Shown piece after piece: positions 2,800 through 19,709 of a stretch of 64,000 nucleotides of DNA (position 1 is its first letter; each line of letters opens with the position of its first letter). Source of the stretch: an uncultured bacterium. GTDB taxonomy: Bacteria; Desulfobacterota_D; UBA1144. Under the pieces are notes generated by a model. The model saw nothing but the letters and a program-made list of their open reading frames with translations, searched no databases and was not told the origin of the DNA. Where the stretch lies: positions 1-64,000 of the forward strand of contig CAJWZP010000002.1 of assembly GCA_913050325.1 (NCBI GenBank), written 5' to 3'. The position numbers and the translations under genes were made by a program.

Positions 2800-4574
2800 T
2801 AAATTTAACGAATTTAATTAAAAAAAATAAAATATTTTTATATGCATTTATTATTTTTAATATTTATATACTGTCCTGGAATTACAGTTATCTCATAATA
2901 AGTGAAGGATGGTTTTTGTTGCCCGCCAAATTGATTAGTGAAGGGAAATTGCCTTATAAAGACTTTTATGCGTATTTGCCCCCATTTTATTATTGGTATT
3001 CATACTTTATTTATTCTTTAGGAGATTCAATAATTTATATTGCCAGAATAATTGGCCAGTTTGTTTTCTGTTTAATATTCTTTTTTACTTATAAATTTTT
3101 TAGAATAAACTTTAGTAAAATAGTCTCTGTAACTGTTACTTTTGTTTCGTTACTAATATATTTAAATACTAATGCAATTTTTACATATGATTTTACTCAT
3201 CTTGTAACACTGTTTTATCTAATTTCTTTTTTCTTTTTAATTAGATCTAATAAATCTGATTCCTGTGCATTCTTCTCTGGTTTTTTTGGAACTCTTTTGG
3301 TTTTAACAAAACAAAGTAATGGTAGCGTGATATTTATATTCTTAGTTATAATTTTTCTTTTAATTAATAAAGAAAATCTTAGCCGAATTTATATTCCTAT
3401 TTTAGGTGCATTACTAGCTGGTTTACCTTTTTTGATTCATATTATATCTTACGGTGGATTCGAAGATTTTATTGATCAAGTAGTTTTTCAAGCAGGAAGT
3501 ACCAAAGGTGGAATATATCATTCTTTAACTACTTTATTCCCACCAACATCCAATTATTATTCTTTCAATACTTTAAAATATTTTATTTTAGATATTTTTT
3601 TTCCACTTTTCATTTTTATTTTCATCTCAATAAGATCAAATAAAAATTTATACTTATTTAAAGATAATAATAGTGACAATAATAATATAATTATTTTCTA
3701 CATTATAATTATTGCTTCGTTAGTTGCAATATTTTTTGACTTTCCTAATATAAAGAATTTACCATACTCATCAGATGTAATTTCATATTTTTGGAATAGA
3801 GCATTTGTATGGAGTGGCTATTATGTGTGTGTATTATTTTTATTAAAAAACTATAATTTTTTTCAAAAAGAAACTTTGGTTTTACTTTTTTCTTTAATTT
3901 TTGCTTCTGCAACATCTGCTGGCTTAACGCCAACTTCTATATATCTGCATTTGGGATTTTTATTTGCAATTCTTTTATCGATGAAATCAATAGCGAATGT
4001 ACTAAAATACTCAGGTTTAATTTTTCTACTTGTTTTGACCGTTTCATCTATTCAAGGAAGAAGCCTAATACAATATCAATGGTGGGGGTATCTTTCTTTA
4101 AAAGGTGTAAATGTATCTAATGAAATTCCTTCAATCAGGAATATAAAAAATCAAACAATATCTGGCAATCTAGTATATTTAAACAAAATAATTTCAAATT
4201 GTAGTATCAAACCAAAAAATTTATTACCCTTTCCGCATGCACCATTAATTAATATAACCACGGGAATTAATCCACCTGGTAAATTTACAACTTACTGGTT
4301 TGATTTTGCTTCAAATAAAGATGTAGAAGATGATTTAGAAAGAATTAAAAAAATAAAAGTTGATGTAGTTTCAATTGTTAATTTAAATGAAAATGCTTAC
4401 AGTGGGCATAATAGGCTTTTTAGAGGTAATAAAGGGCTGTCTCAGACAAAAATGTTAAAGTATCTGAAATCTTTAGTTTCTACAAATGAATATGTACTTT
4501 TAATGAGTAAAGAAATTAGTGGATCTAAGGTTGACTTTTATTTTAGAAAAAATCTTGGGTGCTATTCACAATAG
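2796..4574 (+). CDS. Polytopic membrane protein, GT-C (GT39/ArnT-like) glycosyltransferase
   Basis: Many TM helices; LISEGKLPYKDFYAYLPPFYYW first-loop motif; 4-nt overlap with upstream IMPase. Confidence 0.7.
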   Translation: MINLTNLIKKNKIFLYAFIIFNIYILSWNYSYLIISEGWFLLPAKLISEGKLPYKDFYAYLPPFYYWYSYFIYSLGDSIIYIARIIGQFVFCLIFFFTYKFFRINFSKIVSVTVTFVSLLIYLNTNAIFTYDFTHLVTLFYLISFFFLIRSNKSDSCAFFSGFFGTLLVLTKQSNGSVIFIFLVIIFLLINKENLSRIYIPILGALLAGLPFLIHIISYGGFEDFIDQVVFQAGSTKGGIYHSLTTLFPPTSNYYSFNTLKYFILDIFFPLFIFIFISIRSNKNLYLFKDNNSDNNNIIIFYIIIIASLVAIFFDFPNIKNLPYSSDVISYFWNRAFVWSGYYVCVLFLLKNYNFFQKETLVLLFSLIFASATSAGLTPTSIYLHLGFLFAILLSMKSIANVLKYSGLIFLLVLTVSSIQGRSLIQYQWWGYLSLKGVNVSNEIPSIRNIKNQTISGNLVYLNKIISNCSIKPKNLLPFPHAPLINITTGINPPGKFTTYWFDFASNKDVEDDLERIKKIKVDVVSIVNLNENAYSGHNRLFRGNKGLSQTKMLKYLKSLVSTNEYVLLMSKEISGSKVDFYFRKNLGCYSQ

Positions 4575-6091
4575 TATAAATCAAATCTTTTAGTGGTTTT
4601 TGTTAAATTGCAATTTTTTGTTTTTTTAATAACTTGTAATAATTTATCCAGATAAGTGTTAAATTCTTTATCATAAAGTATATAGCCATTTTTATTCTTA
4701 TAACTTTTACTATTTGACAATAAATTTGATACATAATTAATATCTAGCGATATAAGTGCAAGTGGTGGTCCAGGAATTAGAGGAGAGTATCCCCCTGATT
4801 TAATTAAATTATATTTAATCTTACTCCATGTAAGAATAGATAAGTATCCTTTTGATTGATCAATCTTCTCAATCTCTTTTAATATGCTTTTATCTTCTTC
4901 TTCTAACTGAAATGATTTTTTAAATAAATTATTGTCTATTGTAAATGAATATGTTGACATTATTTCTGGAATTTTTTTATAATTTATTACTATGTTGCTA
5001 AAGCACAAACTAGCTATTAATACTGTTGGTAAAAGAATAACTTTTAAGCTGTAATTTTCCTCCTCTGAATTTCTATCTTTCATTTCATAATAAATAATTG
5101 AAAAACATAAAAAGAAAATTGGCCATAAATTATTAATATTATTTGCTATAGATCTCATGAAAGAATATGAAATAACGGCAATTATAATTGATCCGTAGCA
5201 TGCAATTGTTAAATAATTTTCTTTATTTTTTCGATTCATAATTAGTGCTAAAAGAAGTGGAACAGTTATTAAAAGGATAGGGCTGAATATATTTGGAATA
5301 ATTGCACCTAGTGTCATTCCAAAACCATAACTATAAGCCATTAAGTATGAAAAATGTAAGCCTAAATTTAGCGATTCAATATCAAAAGAATTTTGATAGA
5401 TTTTTAAAACTATATAGCTTAATGTTATAGATATTGTAATTATGGAAAAACCTTTAAATAAAACTTCTTTGAGTTTTTTTATACAGGGTTGATATAAAAG
5501 TTCTTGAAGATAATAAAATCCAATTGAAAACAAAACATAAAAGGATGCCTCTGCAGCCCATAGTAACGATGAGCATAGAACAATACTCAATATAGATATT
5601 TCTCTTGTTTTACTATAATTATTATTTCTAATAAAACATTGGCATAAAATTAAAATATAAACGGGAAAAAATCTAACAACTCCTGTTGATGGATAAACTT
5701 GAGGTCCAAACAAATCTGTACTAGATAAAAGTAATATTATTGAAAATAAAAATATAAAAAAAGAATAATTTTTTAATTTTAGAATTCTTACCGCTATAAA
5801 AAAAGCTATGAATATAGTAATTATATTTAGAACTCCTTGAAAAATATGAAATGAATTTATGGGTCCATTAATATCTAAAATATGAGGTATTAGAATATTT
5901 AAAAATCCATATTGAGAGGGTTGATCTAACAGAAGTTTGTATCCTGATTCGATACCCACTATAGGCTGAATAAAATAAGAGAGATGAAAGCCATGGTCAG
6001 AATTAAAAAGATAATCGGTTCGAAATGAAAGCTGTAAAGCAATAAAAAAAATTAATAAAAGAAAAAAAATATTATATAAATTTATTTTCAT
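4562..6091 (-). CDS. Polytopic membrane protein (GT-C-like), paralog of 7201..8745
   Basis: About 10 hydrophobic segments; N-terminal ~400 aa identical to the 7201..8745 product; C-terminus diverged. Confidence 0.75.
   Translation of the reverse strand: MKINLYNIFFLLLIFFIALQLSFRTDYLFNSDHGFHLSYFIQPIVGIESGYKLLLDQPSQYGFLNILIPHILDINGPINSFHIFQGVLNIITIFIAFFIAVRILKLKNYSFFIFLFSIILLLSSTDLFGPQVYPSTGVVRFFPVYILILCQCFIRNNNYSKTREISILSIVLCSSLLWAAEASFYVLFSIGFYYLQELLYQPCIKKLKEVLFKGFSIITISITLSYIVLKIYQNSFDIESLNLGLHFSYLMAYSYGFGMTLGAIIPNIFSPILLITVPLLLALIMNRKNKENYLTIACYGSIIIAVISYSFMRSIANNINNLWPIFFLCFSIIYYEMKDRNSEEENYSLKVILLPTVLIASLCFSNIVINYKKIPEIMSTYSFTIDNNLFKKSFQLEEEDKSILKEIEKIDQSKGYLSILTWSKIKYNLIKSGGYSPLIPGPPLALISLDINYVSNLLSNSKSYKNKNGYILYDKEFNTYLDKLLQVIKKTKNCNLTKTTKRFDLYYCE
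4859..6073. repeat. 1,215-bp direct repeat, copy A
   Basis: Constant offset +2648 to 7507..8721; encoded proteins identical and all compared lines identical, with no indels; first mismatches at 4858/7506 and 6074/8722. Confidence 0.95.
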
Positions 6092-7191
6092 AGAGATAAC
6101 TTCTTATTAATTAATAAAAAAGAAGGGATAAATATAATTAGAAAGTAAATAAATTCAGATACATATATAGATCCACTTCGAAACTCTAAAATACAAAGTG
6201 GAAAAATTAATGATAATATGAAATTAATTGTAATAAATTTTTTATATTTTGAAAAATAATAATAAATTAAAGTAAATAAAAATGAAACTATTAAAATTTT
6301 GTTTATGAATGGAGAGTCAGACATAGACCCTTGATATCCAAATCTACTTATAATTTGATGGATAAACATAACAAAAACAGTTATCAAAATAGCTTTGTTA
6401 AATATTAAAAATTTATAATTTGTATAATTTATTTTAGGTAGAAGCAAAATTGATAGTACAGTGAGTCCATAAAATAAATACCATAATTTAACATCACTAA
6501 AAATTTTAAACCATATCAGAAAACTAAACATTCCAATATAAATAATCAGTGGTGGCTCAATATATGAAAATTCATTTTTTTTGTTAATCCTTCTTTCTAT
6601 ATTTAATATATTTCTTTTAAAAACCGAGTAAAAATTTATTTTAGGAAAAATATAAAATGATAATCTAATTAATAATAGAATTGATATTGATAAAATGAAA
6701 AATAAATTCATATTATTTTTTATAATTCCAAGCAGTAATTTTTTGGAATCAGAATTCATATAAATAATTAATTCATTATCAAGCTTATCAGTCTCTACGT
6801 GAAACTTAATATAATTTTTTTTAATAAATAAATATTTATCTTTAATTAGCTTATTCTCCGGATCTTTATTAAGTTTTATATCAAGTCCGAATAATTCATT
6901 GTTATTCATAAAATATTCAATCTTGTTAATTTCAATATTTATATAATATTGAGTATCAGATTTTATTTTTTTAAATTGGTCAAAATATTTTCTATTTGAT
7001 TTATTAATCAGATCAATATATTTGATATCTTTTTTTCCAATAAATCCTTGGCTATTACTAAATTTTTCTTTTTTTAATACATTTTTATAAAAATATTTAA
7101 TATTTTCTTTGTGAATGAAAAATGAATTAAATATATGATAAGTAAACAGAATTACTAAAATAATTTGAGATAGTATTAATATTTTTCTCAT
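6088..7191 (-). CDS. Membrane protein: TM + ~150-aa extracytoplasmic domain + TM cluster
   Basis: ORF with one N-terminal TM, a hydrophilic segment with LNKDPENKLIKDKYLFIKKNY, then several TMs; 4-nt overlap with the downstream ORF. Confidence 0.65.
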   Translation of the reverse strand: MRKILILSQIILVILFTYHIFNSFFIHKENIKYFYKNVLKKEKFSNSQGFIGKKDIKYIDLINKSNRKYFDQFKKIKSDTQYYINIEINKIEYFMNNNELFGLDIKLNKDPENKLIKDKYLFIKKNYIKFHVETDKLDNELIIYMNSDSKKLLLGIIKNNMNLFFILSISILLLIRLSFYIFPKINFYSVFKRNILNIERRINKKNEFSYIEPPLIIYIGMFSFLIWFKIFSDVKLWYLFYGLTVLSILLLPKINYTNYKFLIFNKAILITVFVMFIHQIISRFGYQGSMSDSPFINKILIVSFLFTLIYYYFSKYKKFITINFILSLIFPLCILEFRSGSIYVSEFIYFLIIFIPSFLLINKKLSL

Positions 7192-7200
7192 TTCATTAAT

Positions 7201-8745
7201 TTACCTTTCCTCTACACTATAACATTCATAAAAATCGTATCTATTTGATTGAATTAAGGATTTACATGATTTTATATTTTTAACAATTTTAAGAATATTT
7301 TCATAAGTATTCCATTTTTTGTCATGAAGAATATATCCATTCCTATTTTTGAATATGTATGAATTTCTAAAAATTTTTTCAATATAATCATTTGAATGAT
7401 ATGTCATTGATACTGAAGGACCAGGTAAAAATGGCTTGTAATTTTCATTAAATGTATTACCTGTTTTACCGCTCCACGTTAATATAGATAAACTTGATTT
7501 TTTCCAATCAATCTTCTCAATCTCTTTTAATATGCTTTTATCTTCTTCTTCTAACTGAAATGATTTTTTAAATAAATTATTGTCTATTGTAAATGAATAT
7601 GTTGACATTATTTCTGGAATTTTTTTATAATTTATTACTATGTTGCTAAAGCACAAACTAGCTATTAATACTGTTGGTAAAAGAATAACTTTTAAGCTGT
7701 AATTTTCCTCCTCTGAATTTCTATCTTTCATTTCATAATAAATAATTGAAAAACATAAAAAGAAAATTGGCCATAAATTATTAATATTATTTGCTATAGA
7801 TCTCATGAAAGAATATGAAATAACGGCAATTATAATTGATCCGTAGCATGCAATTGTTAAATAATTTTCTTTATTTTTTCGATTCATAATTAGTGCTAAA
7901 AGAAGTGGAACAGTTATTAAAAGGATAGGGCTGAATATATTTGGAATAATTGCACCTAGTGTCATTCCAAAACCATAACTATAAGCCATTAAGTATGAAA
8001 AATGTAAGCCTAAATTTAGCGATTCAATATCAAAAGAATTTTGATAGATTTTTAAAACTATATAGCTTAATGTTATAGATATTGTAATTATGGAAAAACC
8101 TTTAAATAAAACTTCTTTGAGTTTTTTTATACAGGGTTGATATAAAAGTTCTTGAAGATAATAAAATCCAATTGAAAACAAAACATAAAAGGATGCCTCT
8201 GCAGCCCATAGTAACGATGAGCATAGAACAATACTCAATATAGATATTTCTCTTGTTTTACTATAATTATTATTTCTAATAAAACATTGGCATAAAATTA
8301 AAATATAAACGGGAAAAAATCTAACAACTCCTGTTGATGGATAAACTTGAGGTCCAAACAAATCTGTACTAGATAAAAGTAATATTATTGAAAATAAAAA
8401 TATAAAAAAAGAATAATTTTTTAATTTTAGAATTCTTACCGCTATAAAAAAAGCTATGAATATAGTAATTATATTTAGAACTCCTTGAAAAATATGAAAT
8501 GAATTTATGGGTCCATTAATATCTAAAATATGAGGTATTAGAATATTTAAAAATCCATATTGAGAGGGTTGATCTAACAGAAGTTTGTATCCTGATTCGA
8601 TACCCACTATAGGCTGAATAAAATAAGAGAGATGAAAGCCATGGTCAGAATTAAAAAGATAATCGGTTCGAAATGAAAGCTGTAAAGCAATAAAAAAAAT
8701 TAATAAAAGAAAAAAAATATTTAATACTTTCACTTTTATAATCAT
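7201..8745 (-). CDS. Polytopic membrane protein (GT-C-like), paralog of 4562..6091
   Basis: Same N-terminal ~400 aa as 4562..6091; diverged C-terminus. Confidence 0.75.
   Translation of the reverse strand: MIIKVKVLNIFFLLLIFFIALQLSFRTDYLFNSDHGFHLSYFIQPIVGIESGYKLLLDQPSQYGFLNILIPHILDINGPINSFHIFQGVLNIITIFIAFFIAVRILKLKNYSFFIFLFSIILLLSSTDLFGPQVYPSTGVVRFFPVYILILCQCFIRNNNYSKTREISILSIVLCSSLLWAAEASFYVLFSIGFYYLQELLYQPCIKKLKEVLFKGFSIITISITLSYIVLKIYQNSFDIESLNLGLHFSYLMAYSYGFGMTLGAIIPNIFSPILLITVPLLLALIMNRKNKENYLTIACYGSIIIAVISYSFMRSIANNINNLWPIFFLCFSIIYYEMKDRNSEEENYSLKVILLPTVLIASLCFSNIVINYKKIPEIMSTYSFTIDNNLFKKSFQLEEEDKSILKEIEKIDWKKSSLSILTWSGKTGNTFNENYKPFLPGPSVSMTYHSNDYIEKIFRNSYIFKNRNGYILHDKKWNTYENILKIVKNIKSCKSLIQSNRYDFYECYSVEER
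7507..8721. repeat. 1,215-bp direct repeat, copy B
   Basis: See copy A 4859..6073. Confidence 0.95.
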
Positions 8746-10153: not shown

Positions 10154-10956
10154 TTCTCTCCTTTTACTTCTATGTACTCATTGCTAGTAGGAGGTCTATA
10201 ATGAGATATTAGCTTATTTTCAAAATTTTTAATTCCTTTTCCCTTGATTGTCTCAAAAATAATTACATTTGGACCCGTTTTTTTCTTAATTGCAAGTTTA
10301 AAGGTTTCTAAAATTTTCTTATGATCATGTCCATTAGATTTAAAAGTATTCCAACCAAAATTTTGAAATTTTTTACTTAAATCTTTTAAATTAATAATAT
10401 CTTTCGTATTACCATAGCTTTGAATATTATTTTTATCTACTAAACAATAAATTGAGCTAAGCTTATGATGACCTGCAAACATTATAGATTCCCAAGTACT
10501 ACCACAGTTTAATTCACCATCACTTATCATACAGAAAACTCTATTATCATATTTCATATGTCCAATACCGAGACCTATTGAAATAGGTAATCCATGACCT
10601 AAAGAGCCAGTTGAGACTTCAACACCTTTAACTTTATGACTTATATGAGCAGATAAAATAGAACTATTTTTTCCAAAATTTTTTAATTCTTTTTTATTAA
10701 AAAAATTTAGATTAGCCAAAGTTGCATATACAACAGCAGCAACGTGGCCTTTACTTAATACAAAAATATCTCTCTTTGAATCATTTGGTTTTTTTGGATT
10801 TATCCTTAGAACATCTGAGTATAAAACGCTTAATATATCTAAACATGATAGTGCACCCCCAAGGTGAGAACTTTGTGCATCATATATCATTTCAACGATA
10901 TTTTTTTTAAGAACTTTTGCAAGTTTTTGAGATTTAGAAATATTTTTTGATTGCAT
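10150..10956 (-). CDS. Transketolase N-terminal subunit family protein
   Basis: SHLGGALSCLDILSVLY, LSKGHVAAVVYATLA, SDGELNCGSTWESIMFAGHHKL (TPP site). Confidence 0.9.
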   Translation of the reverse strand: MQSKNISKSQKLAKVLKKNIVEMIYDAQSSHLGGALSCLDILSVLYSDVLRINPKKPNDSKRDIFVLSKGHVAAVVYATLANLNFFNKKELKNFGKNSSILSAHISHKVKGVEVSTGSLGHGLPISIGLGIGHMKYDNRVFCMISDGELNCGSTWESIMFAGHHKLSSIYCLVDKNNIQSYGNTKDIINLKDLSKKFQNFGWNTFKSNGHDHKKILETFKLAIKKKTGPNVIIFETIKGKGIKNFENKLISHYRPPTSNEYIEVKGEK

Positions 10957-12850
10957 CTTTTAAAGAATTAACACCATATAATTTATCTGCCTTTACAGAT
11001 AGTAACCCAATATAAATGAGTAATAAAGTATTAAATAAGGTATTAGTGTTTGCATAAATATTATCATAAAAATAAATAAAGCTTTTTGATATCATTAATA
11101 AGCAAATTAAAATTATAATTTTTAAATATTCAGAACTCTTTCTTTTACTTTTTATCAAATATATTAAAGGAATCATAAAATGTAATAATTTATAATCAGT
11201 TGAAGTCGGGGCGAATAAACAAACTATACATAAGCATAAAATAAACTTATATATGTGACTATTCATTTTTATTAAAAAAATAAATCCAGAAAAAATAGAT
11301 ATAAATAAAAAGCCAACAATAATTGAATAGTAATTGGCTATGTTAAAGTTAGGACCTAAAATTAACCATATTGAATTCAGAAGTGAATGGCCAAAATGAA
11401 CACCACTCCATCCCAAAACCATATGATTCTTGTAAAATTTTAATCCTTCTGGGTAAGTATTAAGCCATATATTTATATTTTCAATCGGTTCTCCGTATGG
11501 AAAGATAATTGATGACAGTAGAAATGGTAAAAAGAATAAAATAGTAAATCCACAAAAAGTACCTAAAATTATATCCTTAAGATTATTTTTTTTTAGATAA
11601 ACAGTTAAAAATAATATAGGATATATTTTTAAAGAAGTTGCAAATCCTATTAAAAAACCTGATAAAAAATATCTTCTTTTTATAAAATATAAGAATGACA
11701 ATGCTAAACCAATGAAAACAAATCCTTCAAAGTTTGCCGTGTGCAAAGTAAATAAAAAAGGATAACAACAGAAAATGAATATTGTTGTAAATATAATCTT
11801 TTTTGTTTTTTCTAAATGTTTTGTAAAATTATTTAAGTAAAAGATTGTAAACAATATATAAGAAACTAATATTATTTTAACCCCAAGATAGGGATTGCTG
11901 AGAGTTGATAATTTTAATATTTGTATTATTAATAAACTTCCTGGCAAATAGTTATTTTTTGATGAATCAAAGCCATTTATATGAAAATGATTATCTATAG
12001 AGTAATAATCACAAAAAATACTAATGACATTGTGGAAAGGTGTAAAAATAACAGGAGAGGGAGGATATATTAAAGATTCAATTAAATAATAATAAAATAT
12101 GGAAAATAAAAATCCCAATAAAATTATAGATCCTACAAGATCAAATTTTTTATCACTATTTAAATTTTGATTTAAATCAATCTTAATATTAATAATTTTG
12201 AGTATTCTTTCTTTAATTTTTTCAACTAAATTTGAATAAATCAAATCAAGTTTTCTTTTAGGAGTTTTAATCAAAATATAGTTAAAAATAATAATTAATA
12301 TTATTGAAGTTATTAAAAATTTAAGAAATGTTTTTTCGAAAATAGATTTAAATATGAATTTCCCATCAGACTCAAATTTAAAGAGAATTTTTTCATTAAG
12401 TTTATCGTTTATTTTTACATACTTATTATAGTTTCTTTTCAAAAATAAAAATCTTTCAGAATTAATATTACTCTCATGATCTTTATCTAATTTGTTATCA
12501 ACTCCTATATTTTTAAAATTTTTATACGCATAATCAAAATTATAGAACGAGAACAAAATCTTATAATCAATATTTCCTTTAATTTGGATAAAATTTTTAC
12601 TTCTATCTATTTGTTTAATATCATTAAAATTTATTTTTTTATTCTTGTAAATATTATATATTTCTATTATTTTACCCTGGTCGGCATTAATTGATTTATA
12701 TAGATTTTTAATATTTCCTTTATGAAAATAAAATGAATTATATAAGAAAATTATATATAAAATACTAAATAATATGCTCAAAAAAATTGTGAATTTTCTT
12801 TTATTCATAAAACTTATATAAACTATAACATTCAATTTATTTTTGTTCAT
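10934..12850 (-). CDS. Polytopic membrane protein, GT87/DUF2029-like mannosyltransferase domain with extracytoplasmic N-terminal domain
   Basis: NYLPGSLLIIQILKL, GFLIGFATSLKIYPILFLTVYL, FAPTSTDYKLLHFMIPL; N-terminal segment resembles the 6088..7191 product. Confidence 0.7.
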   Translation of the reverse strand: MNKNKLNVIVYISFMNKRKFTIFLSILFSILYIIFLYNSFYFHKGNIKNLYKSINADQGKIIEIYNIYKNKKINFNDIKQIDRSKNFIQIKGNIDYKILFSFYNFDYAYKNFKNIGVDNKLDKDHESNINSERFLFLKRNYNKYVKINDKLNEKILFKFESDGKFIFKSIFEKTFLKFLITSIILIIIFNYILIKTPKRKLDLIYSNLVEKIKERILKIINIKIDLNQNLNSDKKFDLVGSIILLGFLFSIFYYYLIESLIYPPSPVIFTPFHNVISIFCDYYSIDNHFHINGFDSSKNNYLPGSLLIIQILKLSTLSNPYLGVKIILVSYILFTIFYLNNFTKHLEKTKKIIFTTIFIFCCYPFLFTLHTANFEGFVFIGLALSFLYFIKRRYFLSGFLIGFATSLKIYPILFLTVYLKKNNLKDIILGTFCGFTILFFLPFLLSSIIFPYGEPIENINIWLNTYPEGLKFYKNHMVLGWSGVHFGHSLLNSIWLILGPNFNIANYYSIIVGFLFISIFSGFIFLIKMNSHIYKFILCLCIVCLFAPTSTDYKLLHFMIPLIYLIKSKRKSSEYLKIIILICLLMISKSFIYFYDNIYANTNTLFNTLLLIYIGLLSVKADKLYGVNSLKDAIKKYF

Positions 12851-14701: not shown

Positions 14702-15670
14702 TTACCCTATATTATTTGCTCTAAAAACTTCGTAAGGTTTAGTATTATAATATTCAGGACTATTCCTGAAAGAAATAGATAAGGTATTATCATCTATTAT
14801 CTCAATACAATAATCAATACTTGGAATAATTTTAAAATTTCTATCTTTATCAATTTCGAACAAATGACTTATTCTTCTATGATGCCAAGGACATAGAATT
14901 CTTTGGTTAACCATACATTTACTATTTAGCTTTGCACCCTCATGAGGACAAGTTGTGGGCCAAAGTAATATTTTTTGATCTTTATTTGTTGTAAAAAAAC
15001 TCATAATACCTTCTTTTTCACCTATAACAGCTTCTTTATTATTGTTTATTATTGAATCTATAGAAATTTTAATAGATGATTTTCCTTCTTTTATATAAGC
15101 ATTTGCTCTATAAATCTCTTCGGTAAAATCGAAAGAATATGTTTTATCTGGATTGTAAAAATCATGATTGATTGCTCTAAGGTCTGCTTTACGACATCTC
15201 ATAGGCATGTCTTCTGACATTAACACATCATTATTTTTTTTAATAACCTTCAATATTAAAGGCACTAGGAAATTGAATAATGGTTTATTCACTACTGCAA
15301 ATCTTGATTCAACTTCGACCCCACCAGGCTTATCTTTACTTTTAGTATTAACAACAATTAAAAAAGGGCCAAAAGAGCTATAATAAATTTGATCGTATTC
15401 ATCAAACTCATAATTAACAACAACAATTGGTATTTCTATTCCAAAAATAGGTAATTTTGTTAAATTTATAGATCCAACATAAGAATTACTTACTACGGGT
15501 TGAACACTTTGAATAGATTCATGAACAATATTCAGATGAGGAACATCTTTATAGTTCCAATCGGAATCTTTTGATGTATATCTTCCATTCATGTTTACTT
15601 GTAATATTTTGGAAGAATATCCTTCATTCTCTAGTTCCGATATTATTGTTTCAAAAGACTTTTTTAACAT
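14702..15670 (-). CDS. Rieske [2Fe-2S] domain protein
   Basis: CPHEGAKLNSKCMVNQRILCPWHHRR matches CxH-Xn-CxxH. Confidence 0.82.
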   Translation of the reverse strand: MLKKSFETIISELENEGYSSKILQVNMNGRYTSKDSDWNYKDVPHLNIVHESIQSVQPVVSNSYVGSINLTKLPIFGIEIPIVVVNYEFDEYDQIYYSSFGPFLIVVNTKSKDKPGGVEVESRFAVVNKPLFNFLVPLILKVIKKNNDVLMSEDMPMRCRKADLRAINHDFYNPDKTYSFDFTEEIYRANAYIKEGKSSIKISIDSIINNNKEAVIGEKEGIMSFFTTNKDQKILLWPTTCPHEGAKLNSKCMVNQRILCPWHHRRISHLFEIDKDRNFKIIPSIDYCIEIIDDNTLSISFRNSPEYYNTKPYEVFRANNIG

Positions 15671-15735: not shown

Positions 15736-16200
15736 TTAAGTTGATTTAAAAACATTATTATTCTTCTTTATAATTCTTATTATCAATGGAGTTAAAAAAT
15801 TAAAAAAAGGTTTATTAAGCACAGCAAATCTGGATTCAATTTCGTACTCATTATTTGTAATCTTTCTTTTATTGTTTATTACAATTAAAAAAGGCCCAAA
15901 AGAGCTATAATAAATTTCATTATTTACAGCATATTCGTAATTTACTACAACGATAGGTATCTCTATACCAAAAAGAATAGGTAATTTTGTTAAATTTATA
16001 GATCCAACATAATTTTCATCTACAATAGGCTGTAGAGATTGTTTTGACTCATAAACAATATTTGGTTTAATAAAGTTATTATTATTTGGTTCAGAATTTT
16101 TATCTAAATTCTTAGTTTTTGAATTTACCTGAACTATTTTTGACGAATATCCCTCTTTTTCTAATGCAGAAATTATTATTTCAAATGATTTCTTTGCCAT
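15736..16200 (-). pseudogene. Truncated tandem paralog of the 14702..15670 protein lacking the Rieske domain
   Basis: Shared SYVGSINLTKLPI..FGIEIPIVVVNYE...IYYSSFGPFLIVxN...ESRFAV.NKP.FNFL.PLI; ends just after that region. May be a functional short form rather than a pseudogene. Confidence 0.65.
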
Positions 16201-17270: not shown

Positions 17271-18934
17271 GATTCCATATATTTTATTTATCTTTTATTT
17301 TTTTATTTTTTTTGAATTTATTATTTATATTATTTCCATTCATAAATAATGAGATAGTAATAATAAATGAATTTATGAATATTCCTGATATTTTAAAAAA
17401 TGGTTCCATTGTTAAGTTAGGAAATGAAAATGATTTATTGAAAGGAGTTGCTGATAATCTCATAAAACTTAGGTTTTTTCCATACAAAATTTTAGAGGGA
17501 ATGTTTTTTCATCATCATATGAGCTTTATTGAACCTGCATGGCTTCTAAATCAAGGTGATAATACACCAATCCATCAATATGGTATTTTAGTTTCATTAC
17601 TAATCTCTTCACTTGCTTCAATATCTAATGATATGTTATCAATAGAATCTTATTTTAAAATTAATTATGGTTCATATTTTATCTTTTATTTTTTTATATT
17701 TTTATTGTTAAAGAAATTTATAAAAAATAAAATAAATATATTGATTTATTTTTCATTGATTTCTTTACTAATTTACTCATTAGGTTTTTTGATACTTTAC
17801 ATGACACCTACAGTTTCACCATTAAGACAAATTTTCTCGCCTATCATTATTTATATTGTACTTCTCTATTTCACAAATTTTAAAAAAATTTTTATTAATT
17901 GTATTTTTATCTTTTTGGTTATTTATAGTTTTTATAATTTTCACGCAAGTGTTTTTATTATTTTTTCAATTATTCTTATTTACCTTTTATTATTTATAAC
18001 AAAGAAAAAAACTTGTAAATATAGTTTATATTTAAGTTCTACTTGCTTCATAATAATTCTAGTATTAAATTTTTATTTTAACTTTAATTCTGGTAATTCT
18101 TTTTCAGAGATTGGAATATTTTTTGGTAGTAGTCTTACTTTTAGTTCGACATTGCTTATTGTTTTTATATTAGGTTTATTTTATTCAATAATATCCTCAA
18201 CAGACTGTTTAAAAAATAATGATTTACAATTATTATTTTTGATATTTTATTCTTCTATGTCTTTAGTTTTTTATGCATGGAACCCCTCTATAGTTCATTT
18301 GTCACAAATTTTTTGGATTATATTGTTTACATTAATATTTTGGATAGATAAATATTTAAAGAAAATTAATTCAATTTCTATATTTTTTTTCGCATTCACT
18401 ATATTAACGATAATTCCTACAGCTGAATCATATTTTTATAAGAAAACTTTTTACTATGATAAAATTATTGATAAAATATCTGTTTTTAATTGGGATTTTC
18501 CCAATGCAAAAATTAAATCAACCATAGATCCAAGATTAATTGATGATTCATGTAAAAAATTTCAAAAATATCATATTAATAAAGATATTGTAATGGTTTC
18601 GGAATATGATCTTTTTCTTCCCTATGTCTGTGGTTTTAAGAATAAAGGATTTTACCCACAGCTTGGTCAAGGTTTAATATCAGAAAAATTTTACAATAAG
18701 GCTTTAGAATATTATGATAAGCAGAAGCCAGAATATATTTTTGTAGATAAAGCAATATCCAATAATAATATGGACAAAGATAATTTTGGATTTTATAGTA
18801 TGATTAGTGACTATGCATTTAAAAAAATTAATTATATCTCACAAATCGAAAATGTTTATAATGATTTAAAGATTCATTATGATTTAGTAGAAAAGGGTAA
18901 ATTAATCAATGTCTATAAAAGAAAAAATAAATAA
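17267..18934 (+). CDS. Polytopic membrane protein, GT-C-like
   Basis: About 10 TMs; FFHHHMSFIEPAWLLNQGDNTPIHQYGIL loop resembling DHGFHLSYFIQPIVGIESG...SQYGFLN in 4562..6091. Confidence 0.68.
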   Translation: MRFHIFYLSFIFLFFLNLLFILFPFINNEIVIINEFMNIPDILKNGSIVKLGNENDLLKGVADNLIKLRFFPYKILEGMFFHHHMSFIEPAWLLNQGDNTPIHQYGILVSLLISSLASISNDMLSIESYFKINYGSYFIFYFFIFLLLKKFIKNKINILIYFSLISLLIYSLGFLILYMTPTVSPLRQIFSPIIIYIVLLYFTNFKKIFINCIFIFLVIYSFYNFHASVFIIFSIILIYLLLFITKKKTCKYSLYLSSTCFIIILVLNFYFNFNSGNSFSEIGIFFGSSLTFSSTLLIVFILGLFYSIISSTDCLKNNDLQLLFLIFYSSMSLVFYAWNPSIVHLSQIFWIILFTLIFWIDKYLKKINSISIFFFAFTILTIIPTAESYFYKKTFYYDKIIDKISVFNWDFPNAKIKSTIDPRLIDDSCKKFQKYHINKDIVMVSEYDLFLPYVCGFKNKGFYPQLGQGLISEKFYNKALEYYDKQKPEYIFVDKAISNNNMDKDNFGFYSMISDYAFKKINYISQIENVYNDLKIHYDLVEKGKLINVYKRKNK

Positions 18935-19709
18935 TTCATTATCTCATGACCTTTTTTTTCAACAATTATGTTCAGATGTAGATCATGTAATTTCTTTAAC
19001 TAATATAAAATCAATAGAAGAAAAATCATACAAAGAATGGGTAACTAATATTGATTATTTGGTTGAAGATTTTGTAATAAAAAAATTAAAAGCAAATTTT
19101 CCAAATTCAATCTTCATTTCAGAGGAGAGATCTAATGTTAAAGATTTATTAAGTAATGGAGAATCCATTACATGGATAGTAGATCCAATTGATGGAACAA
19201 ATAATCTCATTAAAAATTATCCATTCTATGCTCTTTCAATATGTGGAATAGTTGATAACGAAATGCAAATTGCATGTGTCTATGATATTTCTAGAAAAGA
19301 AATTTTTTATGCAGAAAAAGATAAAGGTTCTTTTTTAAATGGAAATAAGATATCCGTATCTTCTGTGGAAACATTAAAAAATTCTATAGTTGCTACAGGA
19401 TTTGTAATGTCTAAAGTAGACTATGCGGCTGAAAATTTTGAAAATTTAAAAAGAATTTTTTTTAAATGTAAATCTTTTCGTAGGCTTGGTTCAGCTGCAT
19501 TAGATTTAGCTTATCTAGCAACTGGCAGAGTTGATGCTTGTTGGTATAAAGGCCTTGAAAAGTGGGATTTTGCAGCAGGTTGTCTCTTAGTTTCTGAAGC
19601 GGGGGGCAAAATAACTTCTTTCAAAAACGAAAAATTTAATCTGAATTCGGATACTTTAATAGCGTCAAATTCACTGATTCATGATGATTTATCAGATCTA
19701 TTTGATTAA
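18909..19709 (+). CDS. Inositol monophosphatase family protein (second paralog)
   Basis: WIVDPIDGTNNLIKNYPFY; KWDFAAGCLLVSEAGG. Confidence 0.92.
   Translation: MSIKEKINNSLSHDLFFQQLCSDVDHVISLTNIKSIEEKSYKEWVTNIDYLVEDFVIKKLKANFPNSIFISEERSNVKDLLSNGESITWIVDPIDGTNNLIKNYPFYALSICGIVDNEMQIACVYDISRKEIFYAEKDKGSFLNGNKISVSSVETLKNSIVATGFVMSKVDYAAENFENLKRIFFKCKSFRRLGSAALDLAYLATGRVDACWYKGLEKWDFAAGCLLVSEAGGKITSFKNEKFNLNSDTLIASNSLIHDDLSDLFD

Follow-up and report, generated by a model that had tools for sequence, protein, structure and literature searches.

The window analysed here is a stretch of 64,000 nucleotides from a streamlined genome (about 1 Mb, 26% GC) whose host bacterium is probably marine. Two paralogous genes, W1 and W2, lie on either side of a third, M. 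The features of the locus are as follows.

4562-6091, minus strand: W1, 509 aa, a polytopic membrane protein with nine hydrophobic segments and a soluble C-terminal region (ORF call, hydropathy).
4859-6073, minus strand: the apparently homogenised core, W1 copy, 405 codons, with all nine predicted TM segments and about 40 aa more (exact match to 7507-8721).
4562-4858, minus strand: the diverged C-terminal domain of W1, about 100 aa (72% aa identity to copy B of the relative MED589, MB; 38.5% to W2).
6088-7191, minus strand: the intervening gene M, 367 aa, a membrane protein with a MED589 counterpart in the same place (42% aa identity).
7201-8745, minus strand: W2, 514 aa, the first gene of the W2-M-W1 run (ORF call).
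7507-8721, minus strand: the apparently homogenised core, W2 copy (exact match to 4859-6073).
7201-7506, minus strand: the diverged C-terminal domain of W2, about 100 aa (62% aa identity to MED589 copy A, MA; 38.5% to W1).

All three reading frames were called as intact. The three genes follow one another head to tail in the order W2, M, W1, with a gap of 9 nt between W2 and M and an overlap of 4 nt between M and the start of W1, and because of this spacing they look like one operon-like transcription unit. A Pfam search with M gave no match. Across genomes, M is approximately 34-35% identical to the N-terminal part of a 638-aa GT87 protein (10934-12850), which suggests that the two may have a membrane-anchored domain in common.

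The neighbouring genes encode a GtrA-like protein, a GT2 glycosyltransferase, the GT87 protein and PMT_2-like proteins (below cut-off), together with transketolase halves, a nucleotidyl transferase, a dehydratase and members of the inositol-monophosphatase family; by its predicted gene content the neighbourhood is a surface-glycan cluster. In a genome of the same genus (G001), the last 10 kb of one contig (C1; locus L018) hold pieces of the cluster in another order, and G001 gave no match to W1 or W2, so this surface-glycan region appears to be variable. A 17-kb stretch of the cluster is bracketed by two directly oriented paralogs of the inositol-monophosphatase family (2011-2799 and 18909-19709); both have one-to-one orthologs in MED589 and neither has any sign of recent homogenisation. 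A 322-aa gene (14702-15670) has a truncated 154-aa tandem copy upstream (15736-16200; 71-81% nt identity in blocks). MED589 has a counterpart of the full-length gene only, and the short copy therefore looks like a decaying duplicate.

The longest exact run at an offset of 2,648 is 1,215 nt, beginning at 4859 (4859-6073 = 7507-8721), precisely as the original prediction had placed it. The block comprises codons 7-411 of W1 and 9-413 of W2, so that the identity of about 400 aa claimed earlier amounts to 405 codons without a difference (pS = pN = 0; 272 synonymous sites, none differing). Outside the block, identity at this offset is down to background after one or two bins of 50 nt. The C-termini had been described as homologous and strongly diverged, in agreement with the 38.5% aa and 56.6% nt identity of the two tails over 96 codons (gapped alignment). 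The sharp switch from identity to divergence that had been proposed is found at the 3' edge (4859 and 7507), which lies within the coding region and is the sole true internal switch. It does not extend to the 5' edge: there the switch falls 6-8 codons into W1 and W2 and the DNA upstream of both genes is unrelated, so this edge is simply the end of homology at the gene starts, with no breakpoint inside a homologous region. A frameshifted copy as the source of the tail difference, a possibility that the original prediction had itself raised, is ruled out by the two open reading frames and by the orthologs of both tails described below.

Homologs of W1 and W2 were sought in 146 relatives, 58 genomes of the class, IMG/VR and the contigs of GTDB-species genomes. 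None was found in the first three sets, and the GTDB-species contigs yielded one other locus, on contig NZIV01000044.1 of the MAG MED589 (locus L003); the comparison thus has a single relative with the pair, itself a MAG contig. The order of the cluster is kept there over about 25 kb, with proteins that are mostly 57-85% identical to those of the window; identity is lower for M (42%), a 338-aa gene (49%) and an aminotransferase-like gene at 26.6 kb (31%). The ion-channel gene cut by the start of the window contig (1-521) has its 5' part at the end of contig C3, and the two together would make a complete gene; its protein shares 95% identity with the MED589 one, whereas the adjoining cluster genes mostly reach only the range given above. 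The paralogs of L003 flank the ortholog of M in the same arrangement as in the window.

L003:10001-11542: MA, at the W2 position, the ortholog of W2 by its C-terminus.
L003:12648-14195: MB, at the W1 position, the ortholog of W1 by its C-terminus.

The MED589 bin measures 2.9 Mb and contains a RelA that shares only 41% identity with that of the window, yet four genes beside the cluster on the L003 contig are arranged in the same way in G005, which belongs to the window's family. A truly distant host is therefore doubtful, and the contig probably comes from the window's family and was misbinned in MED589. The argument for conversion depends on this contig alone and not on the identity of the bin.

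A four-way comparison of W1, W2, MA and MB separates the histories of core and tail. In the tails, amino-acid identity is 72% for W1 and MB and 62% for W2 and MA, against 35-38% for all paralogous pairs. Of 27 informative tail sites, 25 support the pairs W1-MB and W2-MA, none joins W1 with MA and two join the paralogs within each genome (25 versus 2, binomial 2e-10). Among the core sites, none pairs W1 with MB and W2 with MA: the W1 and W2 cores are the same, and this shared core, MA and MB are about equidistant (60-63% aa identity), the MA and MB cores being 60.8% identical to one another. Since the tails are orthologous across the genomes, two genes with distinct tails must predate the split of the lineages, and the comparison thereby places the origin of the W1/W2 pair before the divergence from the MED589 relative. 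The window cores, by the same comparison, must have become identical, or nearly so, after that split. Faster evolution of the tails can be ruled out as the source of the contrast between core and tail, because the tail orthologs (62-72%) are no more diverged than the core orthologs (60-63%).

This pattern makes it highly probable that a partial gene conversion took place between the old paralogs W1 and W2 in the lineage of the window, because the pair and its distinct tails are old and only the core is young; we infer conversion as the mechanism by which the cores were homogenised. A recent duplication in the window of one gene, the C-terminus of which then diverged rapidly or was replaced, would be permitted by the identical core taken by itself. 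It is contradicted by the one-to-one orthologs that both tails have at the same positions in MED589, which make the tails old, and we regard it as extremely unlikely. The preference of the original prediction for gene conversion over a simple recent duplication is thus upheld by a relative that has both genes with orthologous tails. Its other suggestion, that the C-terminal domain was recently exchanged as a cassette, is not borne out: in the window as in MED589, each tail has remained at its own gene position.

Contig C3 ends with exactly the 55 nt with which the window contig begins. Such an overlap is what de Bruijn assembly of short reads at k=55 usually leaves behind, and the host genome looks like a product of it. 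A simple core-M-core loop can be walked without spanning reads. An artefact of assembly, in which the cores were collapsed or the assembler looped twice through one core while the genes differ in the cell, has in its favour that short reads cannot span an exact repeat of 1.2 kb and that metaSPAdes, with which the genome was presumably built, collapses strain variants (bulges) and so masks them (PMC8021871). The contig, however, depends on four distinct joins to the core, from both 5' ends and both tails. Collapse merges similar paths and would hardly turn a pair at 61% identity into one sequence, and the gene order in MED589 confirms both tails and gene M; an artefact of this kind is accordingly improbable. 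Because a k=55 assembly may collapse near-identical copies, the window cores could be identical or nearly identical, and the zero differences counted are a minimum divergence. Recent homogenisation survives either way.

As to the course of the conversion, W1 and W2 would be long-standing paralogs in a surface-glycan biosynthesis cluster in which the order W2-M-W1 has been maintained. Recent homologous recombination in the window lineage, presumably of the RecA type, would have copied one membrane core onto the other paralog in a non-reciprocal transfer of at least 1.2 kb. The tract may have reached the 5' end of homology and halted where the C-terminal domains (57% nt identity) were too diverged to pair, and the outcome would be two proteins with a common membrane core and distinct soluble tails. 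There is a hint that W1 may have been the donor: the window core has 48 sites in common with MB and 39 with MA (p = 0.39), and within a run of 30 columns (249-278), where MA has a 3-aa gap, the count is 11:0 for MB. The idea that the window core alternates between tracts resembling MA and tracts resembling MB was rejected as not significant (p = 0.32).

The two MED589 genes may record an earlier round. Their cores differ as paralogs about as much as ortholog cores do (pN of 0.24 versus 0.23-0.26), and their tails differ far more than ortholog tails (pN of 0.45 versus 0.16-0.25). At alignment column 381, close to the window's switch at column 413 but not coincident with it, paralog identity falls from 63% to 34%. 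The drop and the ortholog-like MED589 cores fit an earlier conversion, and they also fit a duplication just before the split in which a tail was replaced. We offer only tentatively the suggestion that homogenisation of the membrane core has recurred in different lineages, with the two C-terminal domains kept as separate lines of descent, such that one evolving core serves two fixed specificity tails. On a variant of the history that is compatible with the recent conversion, the duplication took place shortly before the split of window and MED589 and one tail was replaced at that time, with no concerted evolution besides the recent event in the window. MED589 cores that are as alike as orthologs, at 60.8% against 60-63%, beside much more diverged tails agree with this variant, but earlier rounds of conversion give the same pattern and recent homogenisation in the window is needed in any case; we consider the variant possible, if somewhat short of an even chance.

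The predicted architecture of W1 and W2 has about nine TM segments, all in the common core, with a stretch of approximately 58 residues after TM1 (a long first loop) that carries the invariant residues D28 and D34. About 140 soluble residues follow the last TM segment, and the final approximately 100 differ between the two proteins. The polytopic plan, the acidic loop residues and the soluble C-terminal domain weakly suggest a GT-C plan, to which such features are not specific. Every test of membership in a GT-C family by sequence or profile failed: the sole Pfam match was a sub-threshold, partial one of Acyltransferase 3 (Acyl_transf_3, PF01757) to a TM region (23.7 bits versus a gathering cut-off of 31); NCBIfam gave nothing and the PDB sequences nothing credible; and hhalign gave no match to the neighbouring PMT_2 and GT87 proteins. 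The structure model is too poor to judge the fold by (pLDDT of 51.8), and its best fold match, the DPY19 C-mannosyltransferase, is not significant (E of 0.23). We put it at about an even chance that the core is a sugar transferase of GT-C-like type and that the two tails recognise different acceptors.

Long direct repeats in a surface-glycan cluster would allow fusion of the start of W2 to the tail of W1 with loss of M, and deletion or duplication of M by recombination between them, as originally proposed, is mechanically possible. Programmed switching, in which the repeats act as a recombination cassette that varies the tails or deletes M, is nevertheless very unlikely, given that the assignment of the tails is stable between two diverged genomes, that no recombined form was seen among the assembled sequences and that inverted repeats of at least 40 nt are absent from the window.

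Conversion between W1 and W2 would be a clean, recent and domain-limited case in a streamlined genome, for which the relative distinguishes the old from the young parts of the genes. The cores and tails of surface-glycan enzymes can differ in history, and whole-gene trees and orthology calls for such genes can therefore mislead. The contrast between W1 and W2 also suggests which part of an unassigned membrane-protein family might set specificity.

Domain-limited gene conversion has been documented for RF1/RF2 in Bacteroidia and Chloroflexi (PMC4530459). As in W1/W2, conversion of these paralogs is restricted to the domain of common function and leaves the specificity domains distinct. The RF1/RF2 events are old and affect essential translation factors, whereas the W1/W2 tract is unmutated and lies in accessory surface-glycan genes of putative function. 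In another case, the duplicates tufA and tufB are alike throughout. Conversion of the tuf genes in Salmonella (PMC5485169) resembles that of W1/W2 in being a non-reciprocal homogenisation of duplicates limited by the bounds of homology; unlike tuf, the 3' fifth of W1/W2 was diverged and is still so. The Campylobacter jejuni genes cj1421c and cj1422c have a common N-terminus and different C-termini. These capsule MeOPN transferase genes (PMC4965091, PMC6003734), compared here with W1/W2 by description, differ in carrying polyG phase-variation tracts and in adjoining without an intervening gene. Domain-limited conversion or homogenisation of bacterial paralogs is thus already documented (PMC4530459, PMC5485169), and W1/W2 is a further instance.
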